Shown here: positions 10,403 through 31,974 of the stretch, piece by piece | Layout: every line of letters begins with the position of its first letter | How positions within the stretch are numbered: the first letter of the stretch is position 1 | Source of the DNA: Gammaproteobacteria bacterium | GTDB taxonomy: Bacteria; Pseudomonadota; Gammaproteobacteria; DRLM01 | Assembly: GCA_919903055.1 (NCBI GenBank) | Contig: CAKKSB010000068.1 | Location: 1-37,832, forward strand | Direction: 5' to 3' | DNA length: 37,832 nucleotides | Notes under the pieces: model-generated | What the model was told of the DNA's origin: nothing | What the model saw: only the letters and a program-made list of their open reading frames with translations | The model's database searches: none | Translations under genes and position numbers: made by a program

Positions 10403-10462
10403 GTTGCGGCGGACCCAAGTTCGGCCGCTACACTTCATAAGCCGCAACCGAGTAGGATTGCC

Positions 10463-10732: not shown

Positions 10733-11400
10733 TGAATATCCTCACGGTCCGCCGACTCGGGACGCGGGATTACCAACCGGTGTGGCGCGCCATGCAGGAG
10801 TACACCGAGCGGCGCGACGCCGACAGCGGCGATGAAGTGTGGCTGGTCGAGCATCCGCCGGTCTTCACCGTGGGCCTCAACGGCAAGCCGGAACACCTGC
10901 TGGCGCCCGGCGATATTCCGGTGGTGCACATCGATCGCGGCGGCCAGGTGACCTATCACGGCCCCGGCCAATTGGTGATCTATCCCCTGCTCGACCTGCG
11001 GCGCTTGAAACTGGGCGTGCGGCAATTGGTCGCCAGTTTGGAACAGGCGGTGATCGATCTGCTCGCCGATTATGAAATAACCGCGGTCGGCCGGCGCGAC
11101 GCGCCCGGAGTCTACGTGGACGGCGCCAAGATCGCCGCCCTCGGCCTGCGGGTGCGGCGCGGTTGCTGTTATCACGGCCTGAGTCTCAACGTCGCCATGG
11201 ATTTGCAACCTTTCGCGCGCATCAATCCCTGCGGCTACCCGGATTTGCGGGTCACCCAGCTCAGCGCGCTGACCGGCGGAGTGGAGACGGCGGCGGTGGC
11301 GCAAGGACTGGTTGCCCACTTAGCGCGCGGGCTGGGTGTTACACTGCGCGCAACCGAAACGCCCGCGCCGGCCGCCGTTTCGCGCGCTGCCGGCCTTTAA
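10732..11400 (+). CDS. lipB: Octanoyltransferase LipB
   Basis: [22 protein letters not shown]...[27 protein letters not shown]...[34 protein letters not shown]. Confidence 0.97.
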
Positions 11401-11419
11401 TTTTTTCCGGAGAGTATCC

Positions 11420-12385: not shown

Positions 12386-12709
12386 CCCAAACTCAGTTCA
12401 CTGTCGCGCCGTAATTCCTTCCGCTGATTATTCCGCCGCGCCGGCGTAAGCCGGTATCGGGGGTATCGTATGACATGCCCTCCATGCCTGTTATCGCCTG
12501 CTCATTTTTTCGGGACGACACAAGTTCGCCCGAATTTTATGTCGCGGCGGTGGCTATTTATTCGATTAAATTCACCCGCCGGGTATTTTGATTCCATCGG
12601 CAAGGTTTAACCGGGCGGGCAAATATACCTCAACGTTTTTAAAATTTTCAATTACTTAAATTTTCACAAGGTTTACCTGGGTTGGTGAATGACGTGATTT
12701 ATTACTTCC

Positions 12710-12736
12710 TTGACATTTAAAAAAACTGTCCATAAT
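12710..12736 (+). promoter_or_regulatory. Sigma70-like promoter candidate upstream of the surface-protein cluster
   Basis: TTGACA (12710-12715), 15-nt spacer, CATAAT (12731-12736) in an AT-rich stretch ~110 bp upstream of the 12847 start codon; the spacer is shorter than optimal. Confidence 0.45.
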
Positions 12737-12846
12737 TAGAGAAGCTTAATTTAATTAAAAACTAATAATCATGCGCGTGAGGTCCACGTCAACGAACCTG
12801 TGAATGATCATTCAGGTTTAAGCCGGGGCCAGTTGGAAGGATGTAA

Positions 12847-13380
12847 ATGCTGTTTGTTGTATTGCGCGCGTGGAGCGGTATCGGAATCGTGTTGCTGACC
12901 GTCGGTGTCGTAAAGGCCGCCGATCCGCCCAGCGTTGTGGTCACGCTTTCCGCTCAAAAAATCATCGTGAGCGTCGAGGGCCGCGAGCGGCGGCTGCCGG
13001 CGGAACGGACGCGGCCCGGTGACATCGTCGAATACCGGGCGATGTACAAAAATGCCGGAAAATCCACGGTAAAAAATCTGGTGGCCACTTTGCCGGTTCC
13101 CGCGGCGGGGATGGAATATCTACCGCGTACCGCCGATCCCCATATCGTTCAAGCCAGCGTCGACGGCATTGCTTTCGATAACGTGCCGCTCAAACGCCGC
13201 ATCGTGCTGCCCGGCGGTAGGCAGGTATCGCACGACATCCCTTATTCAGAATACCGCTACCTGCGCTGGGAGCTTGGTGAATTACCGCCCGGAAAAAACA
13301 CCTCGGTAAGCGCACGCATGCGCGTCAATCCAGTAGAACCTCCACCCGTTACGCTCTCGACATCAGGAGATAAGCCATGA
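12847..13380 (+). CDS. Secreted DUF11-like (conserved repeat domain) small protein
   Basis: Signal peptide-like N-terminus; GDIVEYRAMYKNAGKSTVKNLVATLPVPAAGMEYLPRTA is DUF11/conserved-repeat-like. Confidence 0.7.
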   Translation: MLFVVLRAWSGIGIVLLTVGVVKAADPPSVVVTLSAQKIIVSVEGRERRLPAERTRPGDIVEYRAMYKNAGKSTVKNLVATLPVPAAGMEYLPRTADPHIVQASVDGIAFDNVPLKRRIVLPGGRQVSHDIPYSEYRYLRWELGELPPGKNTSVSARMRVNPVEPPPVTLSTSGDKP

Positions 13381-16025: not shown

Positions 16026-16124
16026 GCGCAAGCCCGCTTCCGCCGGTTGCGACGCGAGCGCGCAGCCGGGCGCGGCAGCGCTGGTTCGACGCGGATACGG
16101 CGGCCGGTTGAAGGCGGAAGTGCG

Positions 16125-19100
16125 ATGTACAACGCTTTCAAAAACGCACGGTGTCGAAGGGGCGCGGCCGGCCTGCTCATGCTGACGGGGATGATGCCCG
16201 GCCACGCCGCGCCGCCGGCCGGCAGCGTGATCGGCAACTGGGCGACGATGGCGTATTTCGATCCGGCCAGCGGACTCAATTCCAATCTACGATCCAACAC
16301 CGTCAACGTCATCGTCCAACCGCTGGAAGCGCTGACCCTGACGCGGAATCAAGACATCGTGCACCGCCCCGGCAGCACCTTCCATCTGGCGCATCGCCTC
16401 ATCAACACCGGCAACACGCCGGCGGATTATCTGCTGAGCGTCGCCAATCTCGCCGGCGATCACTATGATCTCGCCGACCTCGGCGTGGTGTACGACGGCA
16501 ACGCCAACGGCATCGCCGACAGCGGCGAGCCCGCGCTCGGCAACGGCGCCGATCTGCGCCTCGCCGCCGGCCAGTGGGCGGATCTGGTGGTCACCGGCAC
16601 CATTCCCGGCACGACGCCGCTGGCCAACGCCGCCGCCCTGCAACTCACCGCGACCAGCCGGCTGCAACAGATCAGCGCCGCCAATACCGATACCGTCACC
16701 ACCCATGACGCGGCCGCGCTGCACCTTGTCACCGCCGCGTCCACCCTCACCCCGGCCCGCGACGAAATGGTGACCTTCACCCTCCGCGCCAGCAACGTCG
16801 GCGGCCTGCACGCGACGGGTATGCCGATAACCTTGAACGGCGCGCCGGCGTCCATGATCGTGATCTACAATGACGTGCCGGCCAACACCACGCTGGTGGA
16901 GCTGAGCGGGCCGGCCAACGGCATACCGCTTTATCATCTGCTGGGCGATCCGCCCATGCTGTTCAGCTCGGCGGCGCCCGCCGACCTCGGCCGGGTGGAC
17001 GCGGTGGGTTACGGTTTCGCCGGTTTCATGGCGGGACAGACCAGCGTCGTCAATCTCAAGGTCAAGATCAACAGCCTCGCCAGCGGCGCGCTGTCCCATC
17101 AGGCGCAGGTGTTTTATACCGACGGCGTCCACCCCGCGGTCATCGGCGCCGAGTCCAACCAGGTCATGCTCGGCATGGCCGCGCTGGCGCCGGCCATCAA
17201 ATATTTCAGAAATGGCAATTTCGATACCGAGCAAGCGGCGACGCGGGTCGGCATGCCTTTATACGTGCAGGCCGAAGCCGCCGCCTGCAACACCGCCGGT
17301 CCGGCCATCGAAACCATCGACATCACGCTTTCGTCGGCGCTGACGACGGACACCGAGGTCTTCGCCGCCACCGAAACCGCGGCCAATTCCGGCCAGTTCC
17401 GCGTCACCGGCGACGTGATGACGGCCGACGGCGATCTTCAGCCGGCGATCAGCGGCAACGGCATACTCGAAGTGAAAAAAGGCGACACCCTCACCGCCAG
17501 CATTCAAGGTTGCGGCGCGACGATGACCCAGACCGCCATCCTGATCGACCCGGCCGGCATCGTCTTCGACAGCAAGACCAATGCCCCGCTGAGCGGCGCG
17601 ACGGTGAGTCTGATCGACGTCGCCGGCGCCGCCAACGGCGGCAACCCCGGCGGCGCGGCGCGGGTGTTCGACATGGACGGCGTGACGGCGGCGCCGAGCA
17701 CGGTGGTGACCGGCGCCGACGGTTTCTATCAATTTCCGCTGGTGGGCGCGAGCACCTATCGCCTGCTGGTGACGCCGCCGGGCGCTTACCGTTTTCCCTC
17801 GACGCTGGCGGCGGGACTGTTACCGGCCGGTCGGCGCATCGATGTCGCGGGTTCCTACGGCGGCGTGTTCCCGGTCAATGAAATCACGGGCGCGGTGATG
17901 ATCGACATCCCGCTCGACGCGGGCGGCGAGGGCTTGTTCGTGCAAAAGACCGCGTCGCGCCGCACGGCGGAGATCGCCGAGTTCGTCGATTACACCGTCA
18001 AGATCAAAAACGTCAGCGGCGCGGCGCTGGCGGGCATCACCTTGTCCGACGCCCTGCCCGCCGGTTTCGCCTACCAGCCCGGCACGGCGCGCTTGAACGG
18101 CGCCGGGGTCGCCGATCCCGCCGGCGGCCGCGGCCCGGCGCTGCGCTTCGCGGTCGGCAATCTCGGCGACGGCGTCACCGCGACGCTGAGTTACCGCGTG
18201 CGCATCGGCCCCGGCGCCTTGCAGGGCGACGGCGTCAACCGCGCCCAGGCCGGCAGCGCGCTGCCCTTGCCCAAACTCAGCAACCTCGCCACCGCCGAAG
18301 TGAAAGTGCAGGGCGGCGTGTTCAGCGACCGCGGTTATCTGCTCGGCAAGGTCTACGCCGACTGCAACGGCAACCGCATACAGGATACCGGCGAAGCGGG
18401 CCTGCCCGGCGTGCGGCTGTATCTCGAAGACGGCAGTTTCGTGATCGCCGACGGCGACGGCAAATACAGTTTTTACGGACTCAGTCCACGCACCCACGTG
18501 CTCAAGCTCGACACCACCACCCTGCCCGCCGGCGCGAGACTCGCCGTGCTCGCCAACCGCAACGCCGGCGACGCCGGCAGCCGCTTCGTCGATCTCAAAC
18601 ACGGCGAATTGCACAAAGCCGATTTCGCGGTGGACGGCTGCGACGAGGCGCTGGCCGCGGCGATAACGCTGCGCAAGCGCAGCGTGGCGGGCGATGAACT
18701 GGCGCGCGGCCTGAAAACCGAGATGACCGCCGACGGCCAGGCCGCCGCGCTCGGCGATGTGCGGGCCTTGCCGGCGAGCGGTGTGCTCGGCGGCGAGACG
18801 CCGGCGGCCTTGCCCGCCACGGCGGAGAATGATGCCGTAACGCCGCCGACCGCTGTCGCGGCCCGCGCCGCGCCCGCGCCGGATGCGCCGCCGCTCGCGG
18901 CCGACGCGGATGAACAACCGGGATTCATCGGCCTGGGCGACCGCGACGTGTTGCCGATGGCGCAGACCAATCTGCGCATCAAAGGTCCGGCGCGCGCCGC
19001 GTTGAGTCTGCTGGTGAACGGCGTAGCGGTGCCGGACGATCGCATCGGCACGCGGCTGGTCCTCGAAGACCGCCGGATCGAAGTGCGCGAATACATCGGC

Positions 19101-21953
19101 CTCGCGCTGCGGCCCGGCGAAAATGTCCTCACCGTCAGCGCCGCCGACGCGTTCGGCAATCCGCGCGGCAGTCACGCCATCACCGTGATCGCGCCCGGTG
19201 AATTGGCGCGGCTGGTGATCGACGTTCCGCAAGCCAAGATGACGGCGGACGGCAGCAGCCTGGGCAGGCTGCGGCTGCGGCTGGTCGACGGCCATAACGT
19301 GCCGGTCACCGCGCGCACGGCGGTGACGCTGGAGACCAGTCTCGGCCTGTGGCAAATCGACGATCTCGACAAACGCGAGCCCGCCGTGCAGACCTTCGTC
19401 GAAGGCGGTCAGGCCGAGTTCGCGCTGCGCGCGCCGGCGGAGCCCGGCGAGGCCCGAGTGCGGATAAGCAGCGGCAGGCTGCGGGCGGAAACTCACATCA
19501 CCTTCCTGCCGCAACTGCGGCCGCTGCTGGCGGTCGGCGTCATCGAAGGTGCTTTCAATCTGCGCAAACTCGACAGCGGCGCGCTGGTGCCGGCGCGCGC
19601 GCAGGATAATTTCGAGCGGGAATTGCGCCAGTTTTCGCAGGAAAACGGCAAAGGCCAGGCCGGCGCGCGCGCCGCGTTATTCCTGAAAGGTAAGATCAAG
19701 GGTGAATATCTGCTGACGCTCGGTTACGACTCCGACAAGGAAACCCAGGAACGCCTGTTTCGCGACATCCAGCCCGATCAGTTTTATCCGGTGTACGGCG
19801 ACGCCGCGGTGAAAGGTTTCGATGCGCAATCCACCGGCCGGCTCTACGTGCGGGTGGACAAGCAACGGTCGTATCTACTGTACGGCGATTACACCACGCA
19901 GACCGCCGTTCAGCCGGCGCGCGGCCTCAGCGCCTATAATCGCAGCCTCAACGGCCTCAAACACCATTACGAAAATTCACGCATCGCCGCCAACGTCTTC
20001 GCCAGCCGCGACAGCACCCGCCAGGTGGTGGAAGAACTGCCCGCCAACGGCACCTCGGGCCCTTATACCTTGAGCAACGACAATGCGATCGAGAACAGCG
20101 AGCGCATCGAGATCATCACCCGTGATCGCAACCAGTCGGCGGTGATTTTGAAAAGCGTGCCGCAGACCCGCTTCAGCGATTACGAGATCGAGGCCTTTAC
20201 CGGCCGGATATTATTTAGGGCGCCGGTGCCCGGCGTCGATGCCGACCTCAATCCGAATTCGATACGCGTGACGTATGAAGTGGATCAGGGCGGCGCTGCA
20301 TTCTGGGTGACGGGCATGGATGCCCAGGTCAAACTCAACGGCCGCGTCGAAGTCGGCGGCAGTTGGATCGACGACCGGAATCCGCAAGACCCGGCGACCT
20401 TGCAGAGCGTCAACGCCACGCTGCGTCTCGCCGAGCAGACCGTGGTGATGGGCGAACTGGTGCGCACCGACAAGCTCAGCGTCGGCGACGGTCACGGCGA
20501 GCGCATCGAAGTGCGCCACGACGGCGAGAATCTGCAAGCGACGCTGTTCGCCGGCCGCACCGACGCGGAGTTCGACAATCCCTCGGCGAGTTTGAGCAAG
20601 GGCCGCGCCGAAGCCGGCGCGCGCGCCTCCTATAAGATCGACGAGCGCACCCGCCTGGTCGGCGAAGCGATCCGCACCGAGGACGTGGTGAGCGACGACC
20701 GCCGCGACGGCGTGATGCTCGGCGCCGAGCGCAGCTTCGACAATAATCTGCGGCTCGAAGCCGGCGTGCGCCACGCCCGCGAACACAGCGCGGCGGCCGA
20801 CATCGACTTTACCAGTCTGCGCGCCAAACTGTCCGCGGCGTTGCCCGGCCTGCCCGCGGCTTCGGTATACGGCGAGGCCGAACGCGAGATCGACGACGAT
20901 AACGGCGTGCTCGCCGCCGGCGGTGAATACCGTTTCACCGACCGCGGCCGTCTGTACGCACGGCACGAGTTCATTTCCTCGCTCGCCGGCCCGTACGCGC
21001 TCAACGCCGATCAACAGCAGAACACCAGCGTACTCGGCATTGACACCGCTTACATGCAAGACGGCCAGGCCTACAGCGAATACCGGGTGCGCGAGGCGAT
21101 CAGCGGCCGCGAGGGCCAGGCGGCGATCGGCCTGCGCAATCTGTGGCGGATCGCCGAAGGCACGCGGCTCAACACCAGCATCGAGCGCATCCACGCGGTG
21201 GCGGGCGGCGCGGACAATGAATCGACCGCGCTCACCGGCGCCATCGAATACACCCGCAATCCGCTGTGGAAAGGCACGGCGCGCCTCGAACTCTACAACA
21301 GCGATCTCAGCCGCAGTCTGCTCAACAGTCTGGGCCTCGCCTACAAGCTCGGCGACGACTGGACCTTGCTCGGCAAGACCATCCTTAGCATCACCGACAA
21401 CAGAAGTCCCGGTGCGGGCCAGCGTTTATTGAGCCGTCTCCAACTCGGTCTGGCCTATCGCGAGACCGCGCGCAATGTTTGGAGCGGCCTCTCGCGCTAC
21501 GAATACAAACGCGAGGACGACGACAGTAATCCCGCCCTGGCGGTGCGGCGCGATGTGCATATCGTCTCACTGCATGCGAACTATCAGCCGAGCAATCCGC
21601 TGATCTTCACCGCGCGTTACGCCGCCAAGCGGGCGACCGAGGACAGCAACGCGATCGAGAGCCGCGCCAGCGCGCAGTTGCTGAGCGGCCGGGCGACGTA
21701 CGACATCGACAAGCGCTGGGACGCCGGTGTCATCATCAGCGGCCTGTTCAGCGGCGGCTACGCGAGCACGCAGTACGGCATGGGCGCGGAGATCGGCCGG
21801 GTGCTTCAGGAAAATCTCTGGATGTCGGTCGGCTACAATTTTTTCGGTTACAGCGACGAGGATTTGACCGGCCAGGACTACACCAACCGCGGCCCTTATT
21901 TGCGGCTGCGCTTCAAGTTCGATGAAAATCTGTTCAGCGGAAGAGCGATGTGA
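16125..21953 (+). CDS. Giant DUF11/SdrD-B-like surface protein with predicted C-terminal outer-membrane beta-barrel (about 1943 aa)
   Basis: MYNAFKNARCRRGAAGLLMLTGMMPGHAAPPAGS signal peptide; SdrD-B-like blocks (GIVFDSKTNAPLSGATVSLIDVAG; GYLLGKVYADCNGNRIQDTGEAGLPGVRLYLEDGSFVIADGDGKYSFYGL); DUF11 block (VDYTVKIKNVSGAALAGITLSDALPAGFAYQPG); Ig-like block (KMTADGSSLGRLRLRLVDGHNVPVTA); amphipathic-strand-rich last ~700 aa ending GPYLRLRFKFDENLFSGRAM. Confidence 0.82.
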   Translation: MYNAFKNARCRRGAAGLLMLTGMMPGHAAPPAGSVIGNWATMAYFDPASGLNSNLRSNTVNVIVQPLEALTLTRNQDIVHRPGSTFHLAHRLINTGNTPADYLLSVANLAGDHYDLADLGVVYDGNANGIADSGEPALGNGADLRLAAGQWADLVVTGTIPGTTPLANAAALQLTATSRLQQISAANTDTVTTHDAAALHLVTAASTLTPARDEMVTFTLRASNVGGLHATGMPITLNGAPASMIVIYNDVPANTTLVELSGPANGIPLYHLLGDPPMLFSSAAPADLGRVDAVGYGFAGFMAGQTSVVNLKVKINSLASGALSHQAQVFYTDGVHPAVIGAESNQVMLGMAALAPAIKYFRNGNFDTEQAATRVGMPLYVQAEAAACNTAGPAIETIDITLSSALTTDTEVFAATETAANSGQFRVTGDVMTADGDLQPAISGNGILEVKKGDTLTASIQGCGATMTQTAILIDPAGIVFDSKTNAPLSGATVSLIDVAGAANGGNPGGAARVFDMDGVTAAPSTVVTGADGFYQFPLVGASTYRLLVTPPGAYRFPSTLAAGLLPAGRRIDVAGSYGGVFPVNEITGAVMIDIPLDAGGEGLFVQKTASRRTAEIAEFVDYTVKIKNVSGAALAGITLSDALPAGFAYQPGTARLNGAGVADPAGGRGPALRFAVGNLGDGVTATLSYRVRIGPGALQGDGVNRAQAGSALPLPKLSNLATAEVKVQGGVFSDRGYLLGKVYADCNGNRIQDTGEAGLPGVRLYLEDGSFVIADGDGKYSFYGLSPRTHVLKLDTTTLPAGARLAVLANRNAGDAGSRFVDLKHGELHKADFAVDGCDEALAAAITLRKRSVAGDELARGLKTEMTADGQAAALGDVRALPASGVLGGETPAALPATAENDAVTPPTAVAARAAPAPDAPPLAADADEQPGFIGLGDRDVLPMAQTNLRIKGPARAALSLLVNGVAVPDDRIGTRLVLEDRRIEVREYIGLALRPGENVLTVSAADAFGNPRGSHAITVIAPGELARLVIDVPQAKMTADGSSLGRLRLRLVDGHNVPVTARTAVTLETSLGLWQIDDLDKREPAVQTFVEGGQAEFALRAPAEPGEARVRISSGRLRAETHITFLPQLRPLLAVGVIEGAFNLRKLDSGALVPARAQDNFERELRQFSQENGKGQAGARAALFLKGKIKGEYLLTLGYDSDKETQERLFRDIQPDQFYPVYGDAAVKGFDAQSTGRLYVRVDKQRSYLLYGDYTTQTAVQPARGLSAYNRSLNGLKHHYENSRIAANVFASRDSTRQVVEELPANGTSGPYTLSNDNAIENSERIEIITRDRNQSAVILKSVPQTRFSDYEIEAFTGRILFRAPVPGVDADLNPNSIRVTYEVDQGGAAFWVTGMDAQVKLNGRVEVGGSWIDDRNPQDPATLQSVNATLRLAEQTVVMGELVRTDKLSVGDGHGERIEVRHDGENLQATLFAGRTDAEFDNPSASLSKGRAEAGARASYKIDERTRLVGEAIRTEDVVSDDRRDGVMLGAERSFDNNLRLEAGVRHAREHSAAADIDFTSLRAKLSAALPGLPAASVYGEAEREIDDDNGVLAAGGEYRFTDRGRLYARHEFISSLAGPYALNADQQQNTSVLGIDTAYMQDGQAYSEYRVREAISGREGQAAIGLRNLWRIAEGTRLNTSIERIHAVAGGADNESTALTGAIEYTRNPLWKGTARLELYNSDLSRSLLNSLGLAYKLGDDWTLLGKTILSITDNRSPGAGQRLLSRLQLGLAYRETARNVWSGLSRYEYKREDDDSNPALAVRRDVHIVSLHANYQPSNPLIFTARYAAKRATEDSNAIESRASAQLLSGRATYDIDKRWDAGVIISGLFSGGYASTQYGMGAEIGRVLQENLWMSVGYNFFGYSDEDLTGQDYTNRGPYLRLRFKFDENLFSGRAM

Positions 21954-21954
21954 C

Positions 21955-24705
21955 ATGCGTATCACGCTACTGATAAGACTGTGCGCGCTGATGCTGTGCT
22001 GCGGCGGGCTGGCGGCCATGGCGCCGGCGCAGGCCGCGTGCACTGGCGGCGCCTGCCTGTCCGCCGGGCCGCGGCTCGCCAGCGTCGATTCCACGCGCGG
22101 CGCGCTGCTCAATGCCTTGCTCGGCAATTTGCTCGGCAGCAGCGTGAATCTGAGCGTCGCCGACTGGAATAATCTCGCGCAAGGCGACGTCAATCTCGTG
22201 AGTTATCTCAATGCGCTGCAAACGTCGTTGAACGTTTCATCGCCGGCCGCCGCGCTCAGCGCCGACGCCACGCTCGCGCAATTGATTTCGACGATGGCCG
22301 CCGCCGCGCAGGCCGACGGCGATACCGCCACCGCCGCCGCGCTCGCTAATCTGCAGCCGCAGGTCTCCGCCCTTGCCGCCACCGTGCGCCTCGGCGATCT
22401 GCTGACGGTGACCACGCCCAGCGGCGCCTTGTCGGACGTCAATCTCAACGCGCTCGATCTCGTCACCGGCGGCATCCAGCTCTACAATTACGACAACGTG
22501 CTGACCACGCCCACGCCGGTGACGATATCCGGCGGCGCCATCGGCCTCGCCGGCGTGATCAATTCGGTGCAGCTCTACGCGCAGGTGATCGAGCCGCCGG
22601 TGATGATTTGCGGTCCGGCCGGTACGCAATTCCACACCGCGGCGATCCGCGTCAAGCTCAACCTGGATCTGGTGGACTTGGGCCTGGGTACCTCGGCCTT
22701 GACCCTATTACCGGGTGTGACCAGCGCGGCGCTGACCCTGGCGCAACTCGAACTCTATGTCGAGGTCGCCCGCGCGCAAGGCACGCTCGCCACCGTCAAC
22801 GCGCTGGCCGACGCCGTGATCGTGCAGGCTACGCCGGGGGTCGCCGATCTTTACCTCGGCAGTATCAGCGACGCGAACTTTTTCAATCGTAGCCGCGTGC
22901 TGAACACCGCCACCGATCTCGGCTTCAGCACCATCGGCGCGCTCACCATCAACGCGCTCACCGTCAATCTTCAAGTGAAGAGCGCTGCGCGCGGCGAGGC
23001 ACCCTTCAGCAGCAGTCTGAGTTTCAGCGGGCCGTATCCGCAGACCCGCAGCGCGAGCACCAGCGCCGCCTTCATCGCCAACCTCGCCGGCACGTTGGTG
23101 AACAACCTCAGTGTGAGCGTGAGTCCCAGCCTGGGCTTGCTCGACGCGGTGGTGTTGCCCGCCGTCAAGACCCTGGTCGGCACGGCCTTGACGCCGGTAT
23201 TGACCACGCTATTGACCGGCCTGGTCGATCCTCTGCTCGAACTGCTCGGCATTCGCCTCGGTGAAGTGGACGTGACGGTCTACGGCGTCACCCGGTCCTG
23301 TTCGATTGCGGGAACGGTGTATCTCGACGCGAATCACAACGCCACACTTGACGGCGAGGCCGGCACCGGCCTCACGCTGTACGCCAAAGCCATAGCGTCC
23401 TCCTCGCCCGGCGGACCGGCGCTGCTGGCGGCGACTGTGGATCCGGCCAGCGGCGCTTACAGCCTGGCCGGCATCGGCGGCGGCAGCTACACCGTGATCG
23501 TCGATACCAACAACACTCTGAGCGACGTCGCGCCCACGGCGCCGGCGGGCTGGGTCGGCACGGAGAGTCCGAGCCTCGCGCGTGTTAATACGACCCTCAC
23601 CTTCAACGATGTCGGCGCTCAGAATTTCGGCCTCTATCACGGCAGCAAACTCAGCGGCAGGGTGTTCAAGGACAACGGCGCCGGCGGCGGCACGCCCAAC
23701 AACGCGGTGCAGGACGGCGGCGAAACCGGTCTTGCCAACGTAGTGATAAAAATCACCGATAATGGCGGCGGCGTCATCCACGACAGCACCGCGAGCGGCG
23801 GTGACGGCAACTACACGCTGTGGATACCGGCCGCCGCCGACGCGAGCATCGTGAAGGTGGTGGAAATCAATGCCGGCGGTTACATTTCCGTCGGCGGCGC
23901 GGCCGGCAATACCGGCGGCGGTTATGATCGCGCCGGCGATACTTTGAGCTTCACCAATGCGGCGGGCGGCAGCTATACCGGCGTTAATTTCGCCGATGTG
24001 CCGGACCTCCGTTTTCTCACCGACGGCCGCCAGACCGCCGTGCCGGGCGGCGTGGTGTTTTATCCGCACCAATTCGTCGCCGGCAGTGGCGGCCAGCTCA
24101 CTTTCAGCGCCGCCGGCACGGCCAACCCGAACGAAGCCGGCTGGAACCAGGTGCTGTATCTCGACGGTAATTGCAGCGGCGCGCTCGATAGCGGCGAGTT
24201 GCCGATAGCGGCCGTGTTGAACGTCGGCGCCGATCAGCAAGTGTGTATCGTGGTGAAGGTCGGCGTACCGGTAAACGCCGCGTACAACGCGCAATACCCG
24301 CTCACGGTGAGCGCGAGTTTCACTTACATCAATGCCAGCCCCGCCTTGACCGGCACGCAAAGCCACAGCGATCTCACCACCGTGAGCAATCCCGCCGAGG
24401 CGGGATTGAAACTCACCAAAACCGTGGACAAGAACGTGGCGCAATCCGGCGAGGTGATCACGTACACCGTCAGCTACATCAATAACAGCAGCGCGGCCTT
24501 GAGCAATCTCAAAATCAACGACTCGACGCCGGCCTACACCGTGTTCAACGCGGCCTCTTGCGGCGCGCTGCCCGCCGGTCTCACCGTTTGCACACTGACG
24601 GCGCAACCCGCCGCCGGCGCCGCCGGCGCCATCGAATGGACGTTCACCGGCACATTGATTTCCGGTGGCAGCGGGAATGTCGGTTTCAGCGTCATCTTGG
24701 AATAA
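21955..24705 (+). CDS. Secreted protein with TadG-like N-terminal region and C-terminal SdrD-B-like/DUF11 domains (about 916 aa)
   Basis: MRITLLIRLCALMLCCGGLAAMAPAQAACTGG signal peptide; LLNALLGNLLGSSVNLSVADWNNLAQGDVNLVSYLNALQ; SdrD-like CSIAGTVYLDANHNATLDGEAGTGLTLYAKA; DUF11 AGLKLTKTVDKNVAQSGEVITYTVSYINNSSAALSNLKINDSTPAYTVF. Confidence 0.75.
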   Translation: MRITLLIRLCALMLCCGGLAAMAPAQAACTGGACLSAGPRLASVDSTRGALLNALLGNLLGSSVNLSVADWNNLAQGDVNLVSYLNALQTSLNVSSPAAALSADATLAQLISTMAAAAQADGDTATAAALANLQPQVSALAATVRLGDLLTVTTPSGALSDVNLNALDLVTGGIQLYNYDNVLTTPTPVTISGGAIGLAGVINSVQLYAQVIEPPVMICGPAGTQFHTAAIRVKLNLDLVDLGLGTSALTLLPGVTSAALTLAQLELYVEVARAQGTLATVNALADAVIVQATPGVADLYLGSISDANFFNRSRVLNTATDLGFSTIGALTINALTVNLQVKSAARGEAPFSSSLSFSGPYPQTRSASTSAAFIANLAGTLVNNLSVSVSPSLGLLDAVVLPAVKTLVGTALTPVLTTLLTGLVDPLLELLGIRLGEVDVTVYGVTRSCSIAGTVYLDANHNATLDGEAGTGLTLYAKAIASSSPGGPALLAATVDPASGAYSLAGIGGGSYTVIVDTNNTLSDVAPTAPAGWVGTESPSLARVNTTLTFNDVGAQNFGLYHGSKLSGRVFKDNGAGGGTPNNAVQDGGETGLANVVIKITDNGGGVIHDSTASGGDGNYTLWIPAAADASIVKVVEINAGGYISVGGAAGNTGGGYDRAGDTLSFTNAAGGSYTGVNFADVPDLRFLTDGRQTAVPGGVVFYPHQFVAGSGGQLTFSAAGTANPNEAGWNQVLYLDGNCSGALDSGELPIAAVLNVGADQQVCIVVKVGVPVNAAYNAQYPLTVSASFTYINASPALTGTQSHSDLTTVSNPAEAGLKLTKTVDKNVAQSGEVITYTVSYINNSSAALSNLKINDSTPAYTVFNAASCGALPAGLTVCTLTAQPAAGAAGAIEWTFTGTLISGGSGNVGFSVILE

Positions 24706-24747
24706 TTAAAAGATTCCTGGAACACGCCGTGTCGCGTCTTTGGAAAG

Positions 24748-24798
24748 CGATATGCCCGTTCGTAGGCATATCGATTTACGTCGAGCGATCTTGATCGC
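24748..24798. repeat. Two adjacent intergenic hairpins
   Basis: CGATATGCC-CGTTCGTA-GGCATATCG (24748-24773) and GCGATC-TT-GATCGC (24785-24798); no obvious U-tract. Confidence 0.55.
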
Positions 24799-24835
24799 CT
24801 CGCTTCGGCACGCTACATCACCGCGGAAAGTAAAT

Positions 24836-24857
24836 GTAGGGTGCGTCCCACGCACCC
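24836..24857 (+). repeat. REP-like hairpin with GTAG tetranucleotide (left copy)
   Basis: GTAGGGTGCGTCCCACGCACCC: 8-bp stem GGGTGCGT/ACGCACCC with CCC loop, preceded by GTA(G). Confidence 0.85.
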
Positions 24858-24864
24858 AATAAAA

Positions 24865-25416
24865 CTACTCACCAAATTCCGCTTTATCCCGATCTCCGTC
24901 TGACGCGCCACACCAATCCAACGGGTAAACCCCGTTTGTCGCGTATTTGTGAAATGTTGAATAAGGCCAATCCGACACCCGGCTCACCAGCCCGTGTTTG
25001 ACGGGATTCCAATGTATATAATCGACATGCCTCAAGTAATCGCCTTCATCTCGGATTAGATGCTCCCAATAACGCCTTTGCCACAAGTTGGTTTCCTTGC
25101 GCTTCAACCGAGATTCGCTCAGCGATTCCGGCCGGGTTAATGGGTTGCCACATGTCCGGCTGACATGCCGTTTGATCATTCCCCAACGCTTGGCAAAATC
25201 CGCATCCCCTTCGGGCAAGGTCCAGATGCAATGAAGGTGGTCCGGTAACAATACCCATGCCTGGATTTGAAAGGGAAATCTTTCGCGCGTTTTTTGTATA
25301 CCCTCTCTCAATGCTTGACGCAGGTTTTCTTCCGTCAACACCGATTGTCTGCGGTAGGTGTTTACGGTGAAGAAGTAAGTTCCTCCTTGCGTATTGGCGC
25401 GCCGGTATTCAGGCAT
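24865..25416 (-). CDS. REP-associated tyrosine transposase (RAYT; Y1/IS200-like, TnpA_REP)
   Basis: From internal ATG at 25416: MPEYRRANTQGGTYFFTVNTYRRQSVLT...IQAWVLLPDHLHCIWTLPEGDADFAKRWGMIKRHVSR...NLWQRRYWEHLIRDEGDYLRHVDYIHWNPVKHGLVSRVSDWPYSTFHKY; HxH motif (HLHCIW) and RAYT C-terminal signature. Confidence 0.93.
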   Translation of the reverse strand: MPEYRRANTQGGTYFFTVNTYRRQSVLTEENLRQALREGIQKTRERFPFQIQAWVLLPDHLHCIWTLPEGDADFAKRWGMIKRHVSRTCGNPLTRPESLSESRLKRKETNLWQRRYWEHLIRDEGDYLRHVDYIHWNPVKHGLVSRVSDWPYSTFHKYATNGVYPLDWCGASDGDRDKAEFGE

Positions 25417-25437
25417 AGGTTCATTTACCCATGTATT

Positions 25438-25458
25438 GGTGCGTGGGACGCACCCTAC
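25438..25458 (-). repeat. REP-like hairpin with GTAG tetranucleotide (right copy, inverted)
   Basis: Plus strand GGTGCGTGGGACGCACCCTAC, reverse complement GTAGGGTGCGTCCCACGCACC. Confidence 0.85.
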
Positions 25459-25463
25459 GCTTG

Positions 25464-25692
25464 CTGAACCAAGTGCGAATTCAGAATCTATTTGTGTAGG
25501 CCCTTTAACTGCTGCTCTCACAGCCTTGGCCTTTTCGAATGCATCTGCTGCGGTAGCACATGCATCGATTTCCGGTGACGCTAAAGCCGGAAACTCAATT
25601 CCCTCAACAAGTTCGAATCCCAAACCATTCAGAAGATCAGAGAGATTTCTTCTCTCCAAACCTGTCTTTTGAATTTCGATAGCCCATCTCAC
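25464..25692 (-). pseudogene. 3'-truncated ORF fragment upstream of the RAYT unit
   Basis: GTG at 25692 opens MRWAIEIQKTGLERRNLSDLLNGLGFELVEGIEFPALASPEIDACATAADAFEKAKAVRAAVKGPTQIDSEFALGSA, protein-like, then runs into the REP hairpin and the RAYT frame. Confidence 0.6.
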
Positions 25693-25697
25693 ATGTG

Positions 25698-25734
25698 TGT
25701 CCCGTTTTCTGTCGGCTGGATGCGATTGTTGGAA
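25698..25734 (-). other. attC-like left half (266-aa gene cassette) abutting an AGAAAACGGGACA arm
   Basis: Sense strand: TTCCAACAATCGCATCCAGCCGAC-AGAAAACGGGACA. R'' box TTCCAAC is the reverse complement of GTTGGAA at this cassette's start (26562-26556). No right half visible. Confidence 0.65.
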
Positions 25735-25738
25735 GGCG

Positions 25739-26539
25739 TTACGCGAACACCAGCACGAGCCCAACGATACTCGCAATTGACGCGACGGCAGCAAACAATG
25801 TCCAGCCCCAATGCTCGGTGACAAGCTCTGCAATGGCTTGTGGATGAATGCCGCGAGCCTCCCACCATGAAGCATTGGTCTTGAGGGTTCCATCAAGCGT
25901 ACGACCGAACAGGTTCGCCAAGATGTCCACCTTTCTGAGGGTGGACTGATGCAGTTTCACGAACTCGCCGTTTTCAAAGGCTGCCGCTTCATCTTTTCCA
26001 ACCAAGAAGCTTTTGTCTGTGATTTTGTTGATGTTCACGATGCTTTCAAGGCGGGGGTGGCCAGCGTACCCGACGCCGTAGATGCTGATTAAAGCGCGCG
26101 CCAAATCAATTTTTCGTTCTTCTGGCAGCCTCGAAGGGGGCTGCCCGCCGAGAATCTTGTGTCTGTGCTCTATCGCCTGAAATCCATAATTGATGTCTCT
26201 CATGTTCCAGTGCATCCATGTGCAGAGGCTGTTCCCCTGTAGAAAATCACCAAACTCGTCCAACATTTCCTTTTCTAGTTGGTCGTAGTAGTTGGCTATC
26301 TGGTCTAGGGGAATTTTCTTTAGCTCCGCGACCTTGTGAATGGAGAACGATTCCGTTTGGCCTGAGCCAAGGTTGCGAACCGCGATAGACGTAACTCTGG
26401 GCGTAGATCCCTCTGGGCGGTCGAAGAAGCTTTCACATGAGTAGTGAACGACTACGACATGATCTTTTCGGGCGTCTATGTCATGCAGTCGCCTCAAGGT
26501 TTCCTTTCGGCTTCTCAGTCGTCGCAGCGTGTCCCCCAC
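25739..26539 (-). CDS. Integron-cassette protein of unknown function, C-terminal transmembrane anchor (266 aa)
   Basis: GTG start; soluble region HVVVVHYSCESFFDRPEGSTPRVTSIAVRNLGSGQTESFSIHK...TWMHWNMRDINYGFQAIEHRHKILGG; C-terminal TM WTLFAAVASIASIVGLVLVFA. Confidence 0.75.
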   Translation of the reverse strand: MGDTLRRLRSRKETLRRLHDIDARKDHVVVVHYSCESFFDRPEGSTPRVTSIAVRNLGSGQTESFSIHKVAELKKIPLDQIANYYDQLEKEMLDEFGDFLQGNSLCTWMHWNMRDINYGFQAIEHRHKILGGQPPSRLPEERKIDLARALISIYGVGYAGHPRLESIVNINKITDKSFLVGKDEAAAFENGEFVKLHQSTLRKVDILANLFGRTLDGTLKTNASWWEARGIHPQAIAELVTEHWGWTLFAAVASIASIVGLVLVFA

Positions 26540-26593
26540 AGCCCTCTCCTATGCTTTCCAACTTTATTAGGCACCCCAACAGGCGCTTTTCTT

Positions 26594-26610
26594 TGCGCCA
26601 ATGTGGCGCA
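26594..26610. repeat. Short perfect hairpin in the cassette region
   Basis: TGCGCCA-ATG-TGGCGCA, 7-bp stem. Confidence 0.6.
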
Positions 26611-26740
26611 TAATTCCAAGAGAAAACGGGACAGATTTATTTATGCGGTTGGCCGTTATTTCACCCCAAAAATAAATCTGTCCGTTTTCTTGCGAAGCGT
26701 CCCAGTGAGCGAAGCGAACGACTTGAGCGCCGTGTTATGC
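26608..26740 (-). other. attC-like site of the 99-aa cassette, interrupted by a ~70-bp hairpin element
   Basis: Sense strand: GCATAACACGGCGCTCAAGTCGTTCGCTTCGCTCACTGGGACGCTTCGCA-[element]-CTTGGAATTATGC; R'' GCATAAC is the reverse complement of the cassette start GTTATGC (27065-27059). Confidence 0.65.
26621..26690. repeat. Inverted-repeat (MITE/REP-like) element inside an attC-like site
   Basis: Arms AGAAAACGGGACAGATTTATTT (from 26621) and its inverted copy AAATAAATCTGTCCGTTTTCT (to 26690), differing by one G; ~27-nt centre. Confidence 0.8.
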
Positions 26741-26742
26741 AT

Positions 26743-27042
26743 TTATTCTCGACGACGGATTAATACTGATCCGTCGTATGTTTTCAAGAAAAATTGCTTT
26801 CCTTCTTTATCTTCCCATACAACTTTTTCCCATCCTTCTAATTGAATTCTGCTTTGTAAATTTTTGGATGAGCACCAACTAATTTTGTAGCCTTTGTCTT
26901 CTAAATTTTGTTGCAATCCGGAATCGGAAGGAAATTTTATGTTGACTTCTAGATCTACGAATTCAGCCGGTTCCCAACTAACTCCACCGATTGGAGTATC
27001 TATCCCTCTCAGTGATTTAAGTATCTTCCTTACCCATTTCAC
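26743..27042 (-). CDS. Integron-cassette protein of unknown function (99 aa)
   Basis: GTG start at 27042 preceded by AAAGGAG; MKWVRKILKSLRGIDTPIGGVSWEPAEFVDLEVNIKFPSDSGLQQNLEDKGYKISWCSSKNLQSRIQLEGWEKVVWEDKEGKQFFLKTYDGSVLIRRRE. Confidence 0.7.
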   Translation of the reverse strand: MKWVRKILKSLRGIDTPIGGVSWEPAEFVDLEVNIKFPSDSGLQQNLEDKGYKISWCSSKNLQSRIQLEGWEKVVWEDKEGKQFFLKTYDGSVLIRRRE

Positions 27043-27058
27043 CCCTCAACTCCTTTAT

Positions 27059-27096
27059 GCATAACGTTCAAGGTCCGATTGACCGCAGGGTTGGGC
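27059..27096 (-). other. Short attC-like site of the AbiTii-like cassette (38 bp)
   Basis: Sense strand GCCCAAC-CCTGC-GGTCAA-TCGGACC-TTGAAC-GTTATGC: R''/L''/L'/R'-like boxes; R'' lies within a 13-nt reverse-complement match (GATGACGCCCAAC) to the cassette start GTTGGGCGTCATC (28068-28056). Confidence 0.65.
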
Positions 27097-27119
27097 GTCA
27101 TCGTGCGCATGAGGCCATG

Positions 27120-28043
27120 CTACTTAAGACCGTAGTATTTGAGTAAAGCCTCTTTAACGACGTCGGATGCGACTGCAACCCCCATCTTCCAAGTGCCGGA
27201 CGCGGCTTTCTTGAGGTTTTCAACGAACCAGGTGCGAACGCGAGGCCCCATTGGTTCGGCGCTGCTATCTGGATTTTCAGATGCCGCGAGACGCGCAAGT
27301 TCTTGAGCATCTTCTTCCGCCATGCCGGACCCTGTTAGAAACTGCGCCAAGCTATTTGCATCATGCGGCGCCACTGCCACTTGAATCGTAGCTCCATCGC
27401 CAGTGGCTGCGATCGACGTGAAGTTTCCGTAGATGATTTGCTGCGCAATTTGCGTAGCTGCTGCAGAACTAGGCGCTGACGGCAAAGCCCCCGGGCCAAT
27501 TGTGACCGCTGCGGCATCCGGAACAGACTTCTCAAGTTCCAGAGTCAGTTCGAGAACGCGACTCCGCACCGCATGGCGTATAGCCGCAAGTGATGAGCGT
27601 GCGATACGCCCAGTTACCGAGTTGCATGCATAGTCCGGATAGACTTTGCCCTGAAGCAGAAGGATGAGGTCGGCAGCGTTTATTCCCAGATCGCCACCTT
27701 TCTCGGCTGTACCTAGTAGATCGTCGACGGCAGCGATGCTCTCACGCATCTCGTACCGCACCCAATGCTCTCCGGCGAATTTCTTAACCAAGTACGGTGA
27801 GATAGGGGCGTTGTTGATCCCAGACCCAAAGGGTCCAGAGAAGCTGGCTGTGTAGGAGACGGTAATGAAACGATAGTCGGGCAACTCGGCATCCCGTGGG
27901 TAGCCCTCTGATTCGTGCCGTACCCAATCGGCGAGTGGCTGACTTCCGATCCGAGCGGCCAAAAGCCGAAGCTTAAGAAGGATCGGACCAAGATCCGATT
28001 CGTCTTGAAGTACCGCAGCTTGGATTTCGTGAAGTAGGCTCAC
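27120..28043 (-). CDS. AbiTii-domain-like protein (abortive infection family)
   Basis: From GTG 28043: MSLLHEIQAAVLQDESDLGPILLKLRLLAARIGSQPLADWVRHESEGYPRDAELPDYRFITVSYTASFSGPFGSGINNAPIS...GTWKMGVAVASDVVKEALLKYYGLK; recognised as AbiTii-like by eye at both ends. Confidence 0.75.
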   Translation of the reverse strand: MSLLHEIQAAVLQDESDLGPILLKLRLLAARIGSQPLADWVRHESEGYPRDAELPDYRFITVSYTASFSGPFGSGINNAPISPYLVKKFAGEHWVRYEMRESIAAVDDLLGTAEKGGDLGINAADLILLLQGKVYPDYACNSVTGRIARSSLAAIRHAVRSRVLELTLELEKSVPDAAAVTIGPGALPSAPSSAAATQIAQQIIYGNFTSIAATGDGATIQVAVAPHDANSLAQFLTGSGMAEEDAQELARLAASENPDSSAEPMGPRVRTWFVENLKKAASGTWKMGVAVASDVVKEALLKYYGLK

Positions 28044-28087
28044 ATATGCTCCCTTGATGACGCCCAACTTGAAATAGACATCCTAAT

Positions 28088-28107
28088 TGACGCCTTATAA
28101 TGCGTCA
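28088..28107. repeat. Hairpin near the outer boundary of the cassette array
   Basis: TGACGC-CTTATAAT-GCGTCA. Confidence 0.5.
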
Positions 28108-28485
28108 TCCTGTGTTCTTAATTATTTCCCATGACCAAAGTATCTTAATTGCAATAAGCAAATCAATTTTAGAATGTCCTATTTAGCTAGGACTAATAAG
28201 CCAGACAGTTCTCTCGAACCGCGTAATGCCCGTATCCGGCGACACTCCATTCAACTGGGCTTACAGTTTTTTCGTGAAGACGACGCCGACTACAAACCAT
28301 GTTCATCACGCGTGCGCGCGCCGCGCGTTTCACCTAAACCACCACCCAGAAAAGAACCCAAGCCACCAAGCTGTCCGTCGCTCAGGGTTTTTTCCTCGGA
28401 TTAAAGCCGCTCCCCCTCCCTCCCGATAACCGCACCATCGGCGCTGGATGCCGATTGATTGGGATGTCTTGAGGAGTGCGGTTCC

Positions 28486-31400
28486 ATGGTGCGGGACGTG
28501 AGCATGACTCCGCTACGGCCATGGAGGCCTTTCCACCGGGTAGGGGGAAAGATGCGCGGTTACGCCGCCATCGCAGCGGTATTTTCAATATTAATGGCTG
28601 ACTGGCCGGGTTTCGCCGAGGTGCGGGCCGCGTCGTCGGCGGCTGTCGATTCGGGGGTGCGTTCCCTTACTCAAATCGAATACGCCGGACGTAAGCCGAC
28701 GCCGCTGGCGCGCGGTTTGACGGGCGTGGCCAACGATGCCGCCGCGGTGCAATTCGTCCAAGGCGCGGTCCATCTCGATCCCCGTTATCTGCCGGTCTTG
28801 CGCGGCGACGAAGGCCATGTGCTGCTGCAATTCCGGGGGCCGCTCGACGTGGAACAGCAACGGCGTCTGACCGGACACGGTGTGGCCCTGCTCGAATACA
28901 TTCCTCACAACACGTGGAAGGCGCGGGTGCGCAGCGCGTCGCTGGCGGCCGTGCGCGGTCTGGATTTCGTCCAGGCGGTCGGCTCGATTTATCCGGTCGA
29001 TAAATTGCCGGCGGCGATCCTCGCCGGAGATTTTCATCCCCGCTCGCTCAATGCCGACGGCAGTTTGAGTCTCGAAGTGTATTTCCATCCCGGTGTCGAT
29101 TACGCCCGCGCGGCGGTCTTGCTGGCGGGGATCGGCGCCGCGCCGGTCCAGGCCGATTTTTTGAGCGGCCGGCATCTGACGGTGCGCCTGCCGCAGAATC
29201 GGGTGATCGACCTGTTGGCCCTCGACAGCGTGGCGTGGGTGGAGGATCGCGAGGCGCCCAAGGCCGGTGAAAACGTGGGGGCGGCCGCTTTGTCGCACGT
29301 GGACAGTTTGTGGCGGGCGCCGTTGAATCTCAGCGGCGCCGGCGTGGCGATCGGTATGTGGGATGAGGGTTTGGTGGATGTCAGTCATCCCGACTTGGCG
29401 GGTCATGTGGCTACCGGCGAGGCGGGGCAGGTGGTAGGCCATGCCACCCATGTGGCCGGCACCTTGTCCGGTTCGGGCGCCGGCAATAGCAGCGCGCGGG
29501 GCATGGCGCCCGCCGCCGCGGTGTGGTCCTATGATTACTTCGGCGACCCGGTGGCGGAACACACCGCCGCCCGCAAGGACCGCGGGATCGCGGTGGCTAA
29601 TAATTCCTGGGGTTATCTGGCCGGCTGGCAGTCGAATTATTACAACGACGGGTATTGGGTGTGGTTTGGCGGCGCGGCCAACCGGACTGATCCGGATTTC
29701 GGCGGTTATTCCTCGCTGACCCGCAATTGGGACCGGCTGGTGTACGACACCGAACTGGTGGTGGTGAAGTCGGCGGGGAATGACCGCAGCGAGAGCGGGG
29801 CCGCGGGCCGCGCCCATCGCCACTACGGCGACAGCACGACCTTGTATTACGATCACCACGACGCCGACGGCGATTACCGCAGCATCGGCCAGATCGCCAC
29901 CGCCAAGAACGTCATCACCGTGGGCGCGGTGGATAATGCCGGCGCCATGACCGCGTACAGCGCCTGGGGTCCGACCAACGACGGCCGGCTCAAGCCGGAT
30001 GTGGTGGCCAAGGGCCAGGATGTCTATTCCACTTATCTTGCGAGCGGTTACACCTCATTAAATGGCACCTCGATGGCCACGCCTACCGTCAGCGGCGCCA
30101 TCGCCCTGCTGGTGGAGAGATACCGCAAAGTCACCGGCAGCCTGGCGCCGCCGCCGGCCCATCTGATCCGCGCTTTGGTGGCCAACACCGCCGCCGATCT
30201 CGGCACGCCGGGACCGGATTACGCCTATGGCTGGGGTTTGCTCGATGCGCAGGCCGCCCTCAAGGTAATCGACGCCGACAGCGGCGCCGGCCGCCGTTTC
30301 ATCACCGCCAGCCTGTTGCAGGGCACGGCGCAGCGCTACGATATCGACGTCGCCGCTAATGCCGGGCCTCTCAAAATCAGCCTGGCCTGGACCGATCCGC
30401 CGGGTTCTCCCGGTGCCGCCGCCGCGCTGGTGAATGATTTGGATATCCGGCTGATCGGCCCCGCCGGGACGGTGTACTACCCTTACAGCCTGGCTGGATT
30501 GCGCGACCCCGCCGCGCCGGCCACCGCCCTCGGCCCCAATAGCGTGGATAATCTCGAGCAAGTGCTGGTCGCGTCGCCGCAGGCCGGGCTGTGGCAGGTG
30601 GAGGTCCGCGGCAGTCGAGTGCAGGGTGTGCAATCCTATTCCCTGGTGAACAACCTCGACATGCCGACCGATAAAACCCCGCCCGGTGGCGGTTATGTAG
30701 TCGTCAACCAAGGCGGCGAATACGCCCTCTCGCCTAAAATCATGGTGTTTTTGGCGGGATACGACAATCAGGGCGTGACCGGTTATTATCTGTCGGAAAA
30801 TCCGGCGCGGCCGGGTTTGAGCCAATTCACCGCGGCGGATACGGTGGCCCGCTTAAGCCTCAGCGTGCCGTATACCTTGTCCGCCGGCGACGGCAGTAAG
30901 ACACTTTATCTGTGGTTGCGCGACGCCTCCGGCAACATCAGCGAGGCGGCGTCGGTCACGGTGAAACTGGACACCCAGCCGCCGGATGCGCCCCGGCTCA
31001 GCGTGCAGGCCGGAACGCAAGGCGGACGGCCGCAATGGGAATGGACGCCGGGCAATGGCATGGGCGTTTTCCGCTACAAGCTCAATGACTCGCGTTTAAA
31101 TATCGGTGCCGAGGAAACCCGGAACCTCGCCTTCCTGCCCGGCGCGCCCTTGAGTCCGGGCATGCACATTTTGTACGTGCAGGAGCGGGATGAGGCGGGG
31201 CAGTGGTCGGCCGTGAGTCAAATGAGTATTACGGTCACCGCCCAGGAATGGGATTCGCCGCAACTCGGCGCGGGCGGCGTACCGCTGGCGCCGAGTCTGC
31301 GCGCCTTGACCCCGGTGAACGATCCTTTACCGCGCTGGTTGTGGAATTCGATAAACGGCGGCGGTATTTTCCGGTTACGGCTGAATGAGGCCGATCTCAG

Positions 31401-31974
31401 CGGCGCCGCCGAGACCACCGCGACCGCCTTCCTGCCGCCGGTGAAGTTGGCCGACGGCCTGCACAGGCTTTATATCCAGGAGCGCGGAGTCAGCGGGCTG
31501 TGGTCGCCGGTGATTTCTTTCGCGGTCATGGTGGATACCGCCGCGCCGGTGACCACCGCCAGCATCACACCGGCGGCGTCGACCTCTACTCAGTGGGTGA
31601 GTTTACGTTGCGACGACATCGGCGCCGGCTGCGCGGCCACCTATTACACTTTGGATGGCAGCGTGCCCACGCCCCAATCGCCGCGGTATAACGGCATGAT
31701 TCCGGTGAGCGCCAGCACGACCCTGCGTTTTCTGTCGTTTGACCAGGCGGGCAACGTCGAGCCGGATCGCGTCGAGACCTATCTGGTCAGCGAGCCCGCC
31801 CAGGCCGGCAGCGGCGGGGGTGGCGGCGGCTTACTGACGGAGTTGCTGCTGCTGATTTGTGCTCTGCCGCTGGCCGCCGCGCGGCGCGGGCGGCGGTTTT
31901 ATTGGCTGCGGGTGCTGACCACTTCGAAGCGTTGGCGTTGTTCGCCGCGCAATTGCACGGTGGATTTGAAGTAG
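28486..31974 (+). CDS. Subtilisin-like S8 serine peptidase with C-terminal chitobiase-type domain and GlyGly-CTERM-like tail
   Basis: Triad motifs GMWDEGLVDVSHPDL, GHATHVAGTLSG, LNGTSMATPTVSGAIALLVERY; C-terminal TYYTLDGSVPTPQSPRYNGMIPVSASTTLRFLSFDQAGNVEP; tail GSGGGGGGLLTELLLLICALPLAAARRGRR. Start uncertain (28486 or 28552). Confidence 0.93.
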   Translation: MVRDVSMTPLRPWRPFHRVGGKMRGYAAIAAVFSILMADWPGFAEVRAASSAAVDSGVRSLTQIEYAGRKPTPLARGLTGVANDAAAVQFVQGAVHLDPRYLPVLRGDEGHVLLQFRGPLDVEQQRRLTGHGVALLEYIPHNTWKARVRSASLAAVRGLDFVQAVGSIYPVDKLPAAILAGDFHPRSLNADGSLSLEVYFHPGVDYARAAVLLAGIGAAPVQADFLSGRHLTVRLPQNRVIDLLALDSVAWVEDREAPKAGENVGAAALSHVDSLWRAPLNLSGAGVAIGMWDEGLVDVSHPDLAGHVATGEAGQVVGHATHVAGTLSGSGAGNSSARGMAPAAAVWSYDYFGDPVAEHTAARKDRGIAVANNSWGYLAGWQSNYYNDGYWVWFGGAANRTDPDFGGYSSLTRNWDRLVYDTELVVVKSAGNDRSESGAAGRAHRHYGDSTTLYYDHHDADGDYRSIGQIATAKNVITVGAVDNAGAMTAYSAWGPTNDGRLKPDVVAKGQDVYSTYLASGYTSLNGTSMATPTVSGAIALLVERYRKVTGSLAPPPAHLIRALVANTAADLGTPGPDYAYGWGLLDAQAALKVIDADSGAGRRFITASLLQGTAQRYDIDVAANAGPLKISLAWTDPPGSPGAAAALVNDLDIRLIGPAGTVYYPYSLAGLRDPAAPATALGPNSVDNLEQVLVASPQAGLWQVEVRGSRVQGVQSYSLVNNLDMPTDKTPPGGGYVVVNQGGEYALSPKIMVFLAGYDNQGVTGYYLSENPARPGLSQFTAADTVARLSLSVPYTLSAGDGSKTLYLWLRDASGNISEAASVTVKLDTQPPDAPRLSVQAGTQGGRPQWEWTPGNGMGVFRYKLNDSRLNIGAEETRNLAFLPGAPLSPGMHILYVQERDEAGQWSAVSQMSITVTAQEWDSPQLGAGGVPLAPSLRALTPVNDPLPRWLWNSINGGGIFRLRLNEADLSGAAETTATAFLPPVKLADGLHRLYIQERGVSGLWSPVISFAVMVDTAAPVTTASITPAASTSTQWVSLRCDDIGAGCAATYYTLDGSVPTPQSPRYNGMIPVSASTTLRFLSFDQAGNVEPDRVETYLVSEPAQAGSGGGGGGLLTELLLLICALPLAAARRGRRFYWLRVLTTSKRWRCSPRNCTVDLK

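Follow-up and report, generated by a model that had tools for sequence, protein, structure and literature searches.

In the standard picture of an integron, a single integrase works with a single attI and a single array. The question raised by the present locus is how three cassette-like genes came to stand in a row where no integrase gene is found. The window analysed here is a stretch of 37,832 nucleotides, and its first-pass annotation described the three genes as a CALIN-like array of integron cassettes on the minus strand. The description of the cassettes holds, and the arrangement proved to be more complex than a single array.

Cassette genes and complementary pairs

The three cassettes are as follows.

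27120–28043, minus strand: cassette 1, AbiTii-domain protein, likely GTG start at 28043, cassette body about 28068–27066
26743–27042, minus strand: cassette 2, ORF of 99 amino acids, no known family
25739–26539, minus strand: cassette 3, protein of 266 amino acids from a family without a name, cassette body about 26562–25711

The cassette 1 protein matched PF18864 (E 2.4e-39) and the PADLOC AbiTii model (E 1.5e-33). Neither the 99-aa nor the 266-aa protein had a match in Pfam, PADLOC or NCBIfam. Homologues of the 266-aa protein are present on six plasmids, five of them being 49–55% identical and two lying near HEPN or TrlF-like genes; no plasmid homologue of the 99-aa protein was found. Judged by annotation, the plasmid homologues of the AbiTii and 266-aa proteins have no obvious cassette context, which is neutral on their mobility as cassettes.

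Each gene is enclosed by a complementary pair that fits the R'' (RYYYAAC) and R' (GTTRRRY) boxes of a cassette, and the coordinates and sequences first given for all three pairs are correct.

28068–28056 with 27102–27090, minus strand: pair 1, 13-nt complement, AbiTii cassette
27065–27057 with 26742–26734, minus strand: pair 2, 9-nt complement, 99-aa cassette
26562–26556 with 25734–25728, minus strand: pair 3, 7-nt complement GTTGGAA/TTCCAAC, 266-aa cassette

When the 43 nt before the start and the 75 nt after the stop were shuffled 2000 times per gene, the 13-nt length of the AbiTii gene was never reached (0/2000) and is beyond chance alone, and the 9 nt of the 99-aa gene, reached in 17 shuffles, is nearly so. 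The 7 nt of the 266-aa gene was reached in 212 of 2000, and this length alone is not significant. In the same comparison, 15 other genes of the window gave complements of 8 nt or less. The third pair therefore lends something to the view that three genes of a variable island resemble cassettes by chance, through short inverted repeats. All three pairs are considered real because of the flanking attC anatomy, and not because of pair length alone.

attC sites

Because a strict scan for R''/R' hairpins gave too few sites, arm matrices were used instead. The training set for a matrix of R''-spacer-L'' consisted of 15 attC sites, taken from class 1 integron plasmids and from related genomes, and contained no window sequence. 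Among 75,620 positions on both strands the three R'' boxes took the top three places, with 17.8 bits (attC1), 17.8 (attC2) and 14.9 (attC3); the next-best window position scored 13.5.

27059–27102, minus strand: attC1, covariance match (model R3) and matrix rank 1
26691–26742, minus strand: attC2, 5' half only, R'' GCATAAC (26740–26734) and L'' arm, matrix rank 2
25711–25734, minus strand: attC3, 5' half only, TTCCAAC-AATCG-CATCCAGCCGAC, cut off at AGAAAACGGGACA, matrix rank 3

A covariance search had been proposed as the check on the first reading. With the model R3, made from 28 attC sites, attC1 (27096–27059) was matched at 23.2 bits with E 0.0011 in the window and 0.067 in the genome (model E-values, here and below, are rough by the tool's own statement), and the damaged attC2 and attC3 were not matched. 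Rfam gave no match in the window. RF01731, tried as a guess at the attC family, had zero matches across the genome.

attC1 is composed of R'' GCCCAAC (27096–27090), the spacer CCTGC, a GGTC-AATCG-GACC mini-stem, TTGAAC and R' GTTATGC, and its 13-nt complement with the cassette start takes in 27102–27097. Apart from the missing distal hairpin and L', it resembles the attC, GCCTAACTCGGCGCTCAACCGGACC...GGTTAGCTTGAACGTTGGGC, that is intact in G001, a sister genome of the same genus. attC2 matches an intact attC of G020 (L041/L019) at 97% over 35 nt, and its 5' half runs into a 70-bp palindrome with arms AAAACGGGACAGATTTATTT. In attC3, R'' and L'' are kept, and the site then breaks off at an arm end like that of the palindrome, with which attC3 shares the inverted repeat I3. 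The R''-spacer-L'' arms are thus present throughout, with the hairpin and L' gone from attC1 and the 3' halves gone from attC2 and attC3. All three sites are worn: attC1 by loss of its hairpin, attC2 by the palindrome that splits it, and attC3 by being cut off.

The threshold for a CALIN in an IntegronFinder-type rule is at least two attC sites (PMC12444791), and one attC of the window was matched with our own covariance model. Such a rule would probably miss the array and not call it a CALIN, because only attC1 reaches a covariance match and all attC sites are damaged.

attI-like sites before two of the cassettes

A model of attI, R1, was made from four sites, none of them from the window. 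It matched the window at two places.

28062–28137, minus strand: attI-A, before the AbiTii cassette, ending at R' GTTGGGC (28068–28062), R1 27.8 bits, E 6.4e-7
26556–26626, minus strand: attI-B, before the 266-aa cassette, ending at R' GTTGGAA (26562–26556), R1 42.8 bits, E 1.6e-11

Both matches end exactly at cassette starts, and the third-best match in the window had an E-value of 0.79. The score of attI-A is modest; its 3' half also resembles the attI beside intI in G027:C30. Sequences 79–84% identical to the stretch from the palindrome to the 266-aa cassette are found at other places in this genome and also in G001, and those uncut by a contig end continue with GTTRRRY and then a gene.

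The element consists of a promoter-like TTGAC-N17-CATACT, GGCGYAAAA, a hairpin of the GACACC-AATTAG-GGTGTC type and GAATACAA-GTTRRRY. In four of the six hairpin pairs both bases have changed and still pair (2/500 shuffles). The Pc promoter, conserved in the attI family, is degenerate in both window copies, and neither has a good -35 box.

The window thus contains two putative attI sites, recognised by homology to intI-linked attI, and no adjacent intI as a complete integron would have: no IntI remnant was found by tblastn within 3 kb of either site, the region upstream of attI-A included. That the window lacks intI, as first reported, was borne out. A search of the rest of the genome, recommended at the same time, gave no match above the TIGR02249 cut-off in an assembly that is 75% complete, so that, within this scope, no integron integrase lies nearby, as in a CALIN. 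The next gene upstream of the array is indeed a subtilase.

The three matrix ranks, the covariance match of attC1 and the two attI matches at exact cassette starts jointly refute the view that the cassettes are a chance resemblance, whose probability we consider negligible. Of the first description, integron cassettes without a nearby integrase stand, and the single plain array gives way, there being two attI-like sites. Because these sites precede both the AbiTii and the 266-aa cassettes, the region has the look of two short arrays, each at an orphan attI site (attI without adjacent intI), that were fused through a REP-like palindrome. In all likelihood, it is a decayed, integrase-less, CALIN-like array built of these two. 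Its own intI has presumably been lost, or else falls within the quarter that the assembly lacks.

Palindrome, transposase unit and surrounding insertion

Two REP-related features are found in and beside the array.

26621–26690, minus strand: REP-like palindrome, inverted repeat I2, fold of -22 kcal/mol with DNA parameters
24829–25465, minus strand: REP-associated tyrosine transposase unit, gene about 25416–24865 between inverted REP arms (I1)

The palindrome that splits attC2 also removes the -35 box of attI-B. Three copies exist in the genome (window 26621–26690, G000:C73:13423 and G000:C134:1883), all near attC, and the palindrome may prefer attC or cassette arrays. The transposase matched NF047646 (E 1.9e-60). 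Since the palindrome and the REP arms of the transposase unit (GGTGCGTGGGACGCACC) are unlike in sequence, no link between the two is claimed. It should be mentioned that the transposase unit interrupts an ORF fragment (25692–25466), possibly a fourth, broken cassette gene.

In G002, the genes corresponding to window positions 1–12381 and 28399–31872 are about 2 kb apart with uppP between them (named from sequence and not by a family search), whereas the window has 16 kb there and a short uppP-like stretch left near 28345–28280. Because of this difference in spacing, and because none of the 55 relatives searched has the AbiTii gene, the array lies in a lineage-specific insertion of 16 kb (window 12382–28398) in place of uppP. 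The same insertion also holds large DUF11-repeat surface proteins (12847–24705) beside the cassettes.

Dispersal of the attI element

The exact IUPAC core of the element occurs in five stretches among 85,462 species genomes, all from uncultured Gammaproteobacteria MAGs. A refined attI model (E<=1e-4) matched 16 of 369 sampled genomes of the class. Five copies are present in each of G027 and G174, four in the genome of the window (G000), three in G001, two in each of G031, G176, G073 and G154, and one in each of the remaining matching genomes; G002, of the same genus, has no such site. Degenerate copies (C39/C27), G025, G055 and copies at contig ends were left out of the statistics. The degenerate attI-like promoters, which lack GTT and cassettes, are in the same place in two species (L082 about 6019 in G000:C39; L085 about 2296 in G001:C27).

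Four copies are linked to intI, with the element directly upstream of the gene: G001:C50, G174:C6 (nzgw581), G073:C56 and G176:C2. In G001:C50 the intI is divergent and full-length, and the element occupies the canonical attI position; the intI of G176:C2 has a stop. In other genomes intI lies away from the attI copies (on C30 in G027, C73 in G026, C17 in G137, and C23 and C16 in G201), and no intI (E<=1e-40) was found in G031, G193, G265, G154, G203, G117 and G249, each of which is at least 96% complete.

The flanks of the orphan sites are ordinary chromosome. Those of G000:C144 and G001:C60 lie after atpC, with glmU following the cassette in C144, and atpC and glmU are neighbours in G003 and G005. 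In G002, the sequence after atpC (G002:C22:36170–36611) repeats one upstream of intI in G002:C23, and both contigs end in the repeat.

Cassettes at orphan attI sites

A complementary R'' partner (>=6/7) was found downstream of 18 of 26 orphan attI sites and of 29 of 373 control GTTRRRY sites (p=6e-13), a comparison that is conservative because the controls include true cassettes. The 26 are those orphan sites whose sequence was long enough, and they include the two of the window; the controls are the other GTTRRRY sites of the same loci. An intact, model-supported attC is present downstream of many orphan sites.

These observations bear on the view that the dispersed element is no recombination site but an ordinary promoter, or a leader, for accessory genes. 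The sigma70-like TTGAC-N17-CATACT and the hairpin would suit such a role, as would the degenerate copies upstream of ordinary genes in G000:C39 and G001:C27. However, the homology stops exactly at GTTRRRY, the element is in the canonical attI position beside intI in four genomes, and the excess of R'' partners, with attC downstream, is what a recombination site would have. The promoter view is thus very improbable, and we continue to regard the element as attI.

Among the cargo, a single cassette at the orphan attI of G174:C2 (L166:2005–3829) carries a complete NgoMIV-type restriction-modification pair with an R'/R'' complement of 7/7, and the cassettes of G203:C43 and G000:C144 carry a PIN-domain protein with a pilin and DUF4238, respectively. 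G137:C38 and G249:C31 have 775 nt upstream (86%) and the downstream gene in common and a different first cassette; this orphan locus thus shows a clean cassette swap between two species. Similarly, G000:C144 and G001:C60 have the atpC flank and attI in common, but their cassettes differ. nzgw581 (G174) carries the same cassette start twice, identical over 120/120 nt: once at position 4 of the intI-linked array, and once at position 1 after the orphan attI of C22b. Both copies run into contig ends, as a repeat would, which leaves some chance of an assembly fault.

In G174:C2, G174:C9 and G154:C14 (L166:4293 on the plus strand, L169:5582 on the minus strand and L176:3254 on the plus strand), the R' GTT that follows the last attC-like site is also the precise starting point of a further sequence, GTT-GAGGCTGTAGAAAA, as if an element targets that point.

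Origin of the orphan sites

Remnants of the 5' part of intI lie by the attI of G265:C1 and G154:C14 (tblastn) and of G174:C22b and G176:C3 (short DNA similarity). Because some orphan sites carry such remnants, loss of intI is one route to them, and alone it explains part of the family. The orphan sites might then all be relics, that is, complete integrons with intI deleted and zero recombination since. The stop in the intI of G176:C2 and the damage to all window attC sites are in keeping with this. On the other hand, different cassettes are found at the same orphan locus in sister species, and one cassette of nzgw581 is at two platforms of one genome. Moreover, G174:C2, G174:C9 and the resident site have a sharply bounded 142 bp in common and nothing further left, and no intI remnant is found in C2 or C9. 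We therefore consider relics alone an unlikely explanation, although one of appreciable weight. The sharp end of the likeness at 142 bp suggests that copying of a small module is another route. The GTGGTGT at its left border looks like a weak R box. Movement of the module by IntI itself is speculation, and for movement of the whole attI-cassette unit by IntI recombination at GTGGTGT the shared left border is no more than a hint.

The occurrence of attI in several places per genome, mostly without adjacent intI, suggests that many insertion points, scattered through the genome, can share a single integrase. In the account that we consider likely, a cassette circle would bring its attC to an attI-Pc module, where the integrase encoded elsewhere in the genome, presumably acting in trans on the orphan attI, would join attC to attI at G^TTRRRY. 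The Pc promoter of the module, where intact, presumably works and would express the first cassette. attI-A and attI-B belong to this dispersed family: attI-A would have begun an array of the AbiTii and 99-aa cassettes, and attI-B an array of the 266-aa cassette. Later decay would have included the hairpin deletion in attC1 and the palindrome-associated truncation of attC2, attI-B and attC3. A bolder reading, offered tentatively and with somewhat less than an even chance of being correct, is that of a distributed integron, in which one chromosomal integrase would serve scattered attI-Pc pads, the module of about 142 bp with its sharp left end at GTGGTGT would be mobile, and cassettes, such as those with defence genes, would be inserted and expressed at many loci.

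Comparison with known systems and implications

CALINs, clusters of attC sites lacking an integrase, are well known. In Xanthomonas, about 50% of genomes have them, at a few conserved loci, and IntI is said to be able to mobilise them in trans (PMC12444791). The present loci are like these in having cassettes with attC and no nearby intI, and unlike them in the full attI-like module before the cassettes, since the passages considered of PMC12444791 report no attI at CALIN loci. One reported case, a prophage CALIN of Shewanella sp. with its own attI (PMC9892861), is likewise an integrase-less array starting with the attI of the resident integron; however, there is one extra copy in one prophage there, whereas here a genome can have several, in ordinary chromosomal surroundings, and the copies span several families. 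Truncated attI sites move within cassettes of class 1 and 2 integrons (PMC12901181). In these Delta-attI-type cassettes, attI has also moved to a new place, where it is still recombined by IntI, but a mostly truncated attI replaces the 3' attC of the cassette, whereas here attI and promoter precede the cassettes. The attG genomic sites also receive cassettes outside the main attI; mentioned in PMC12444791 and PMC12901181, they are short consensus targets, neither attC nor attI, whereas the sites here are homologous attI copies. No report of multi-copy dispersed attI-Pc modules was found in the open-access text searched, subscription papers being outside the search.

If attI-Pc modules are multi-copy landing pads, the position and expression of cassettes would not be confined to a single queue. 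This would also give a testable reason for the recurrence of integrase-less arrays at the same few chromosomal loci, as in Xanthomonas. The presence of a complete NgoMIV-type restriction-modification pair and an AbiTii gene in the cargo agrees with the view that integrons store defence genes.
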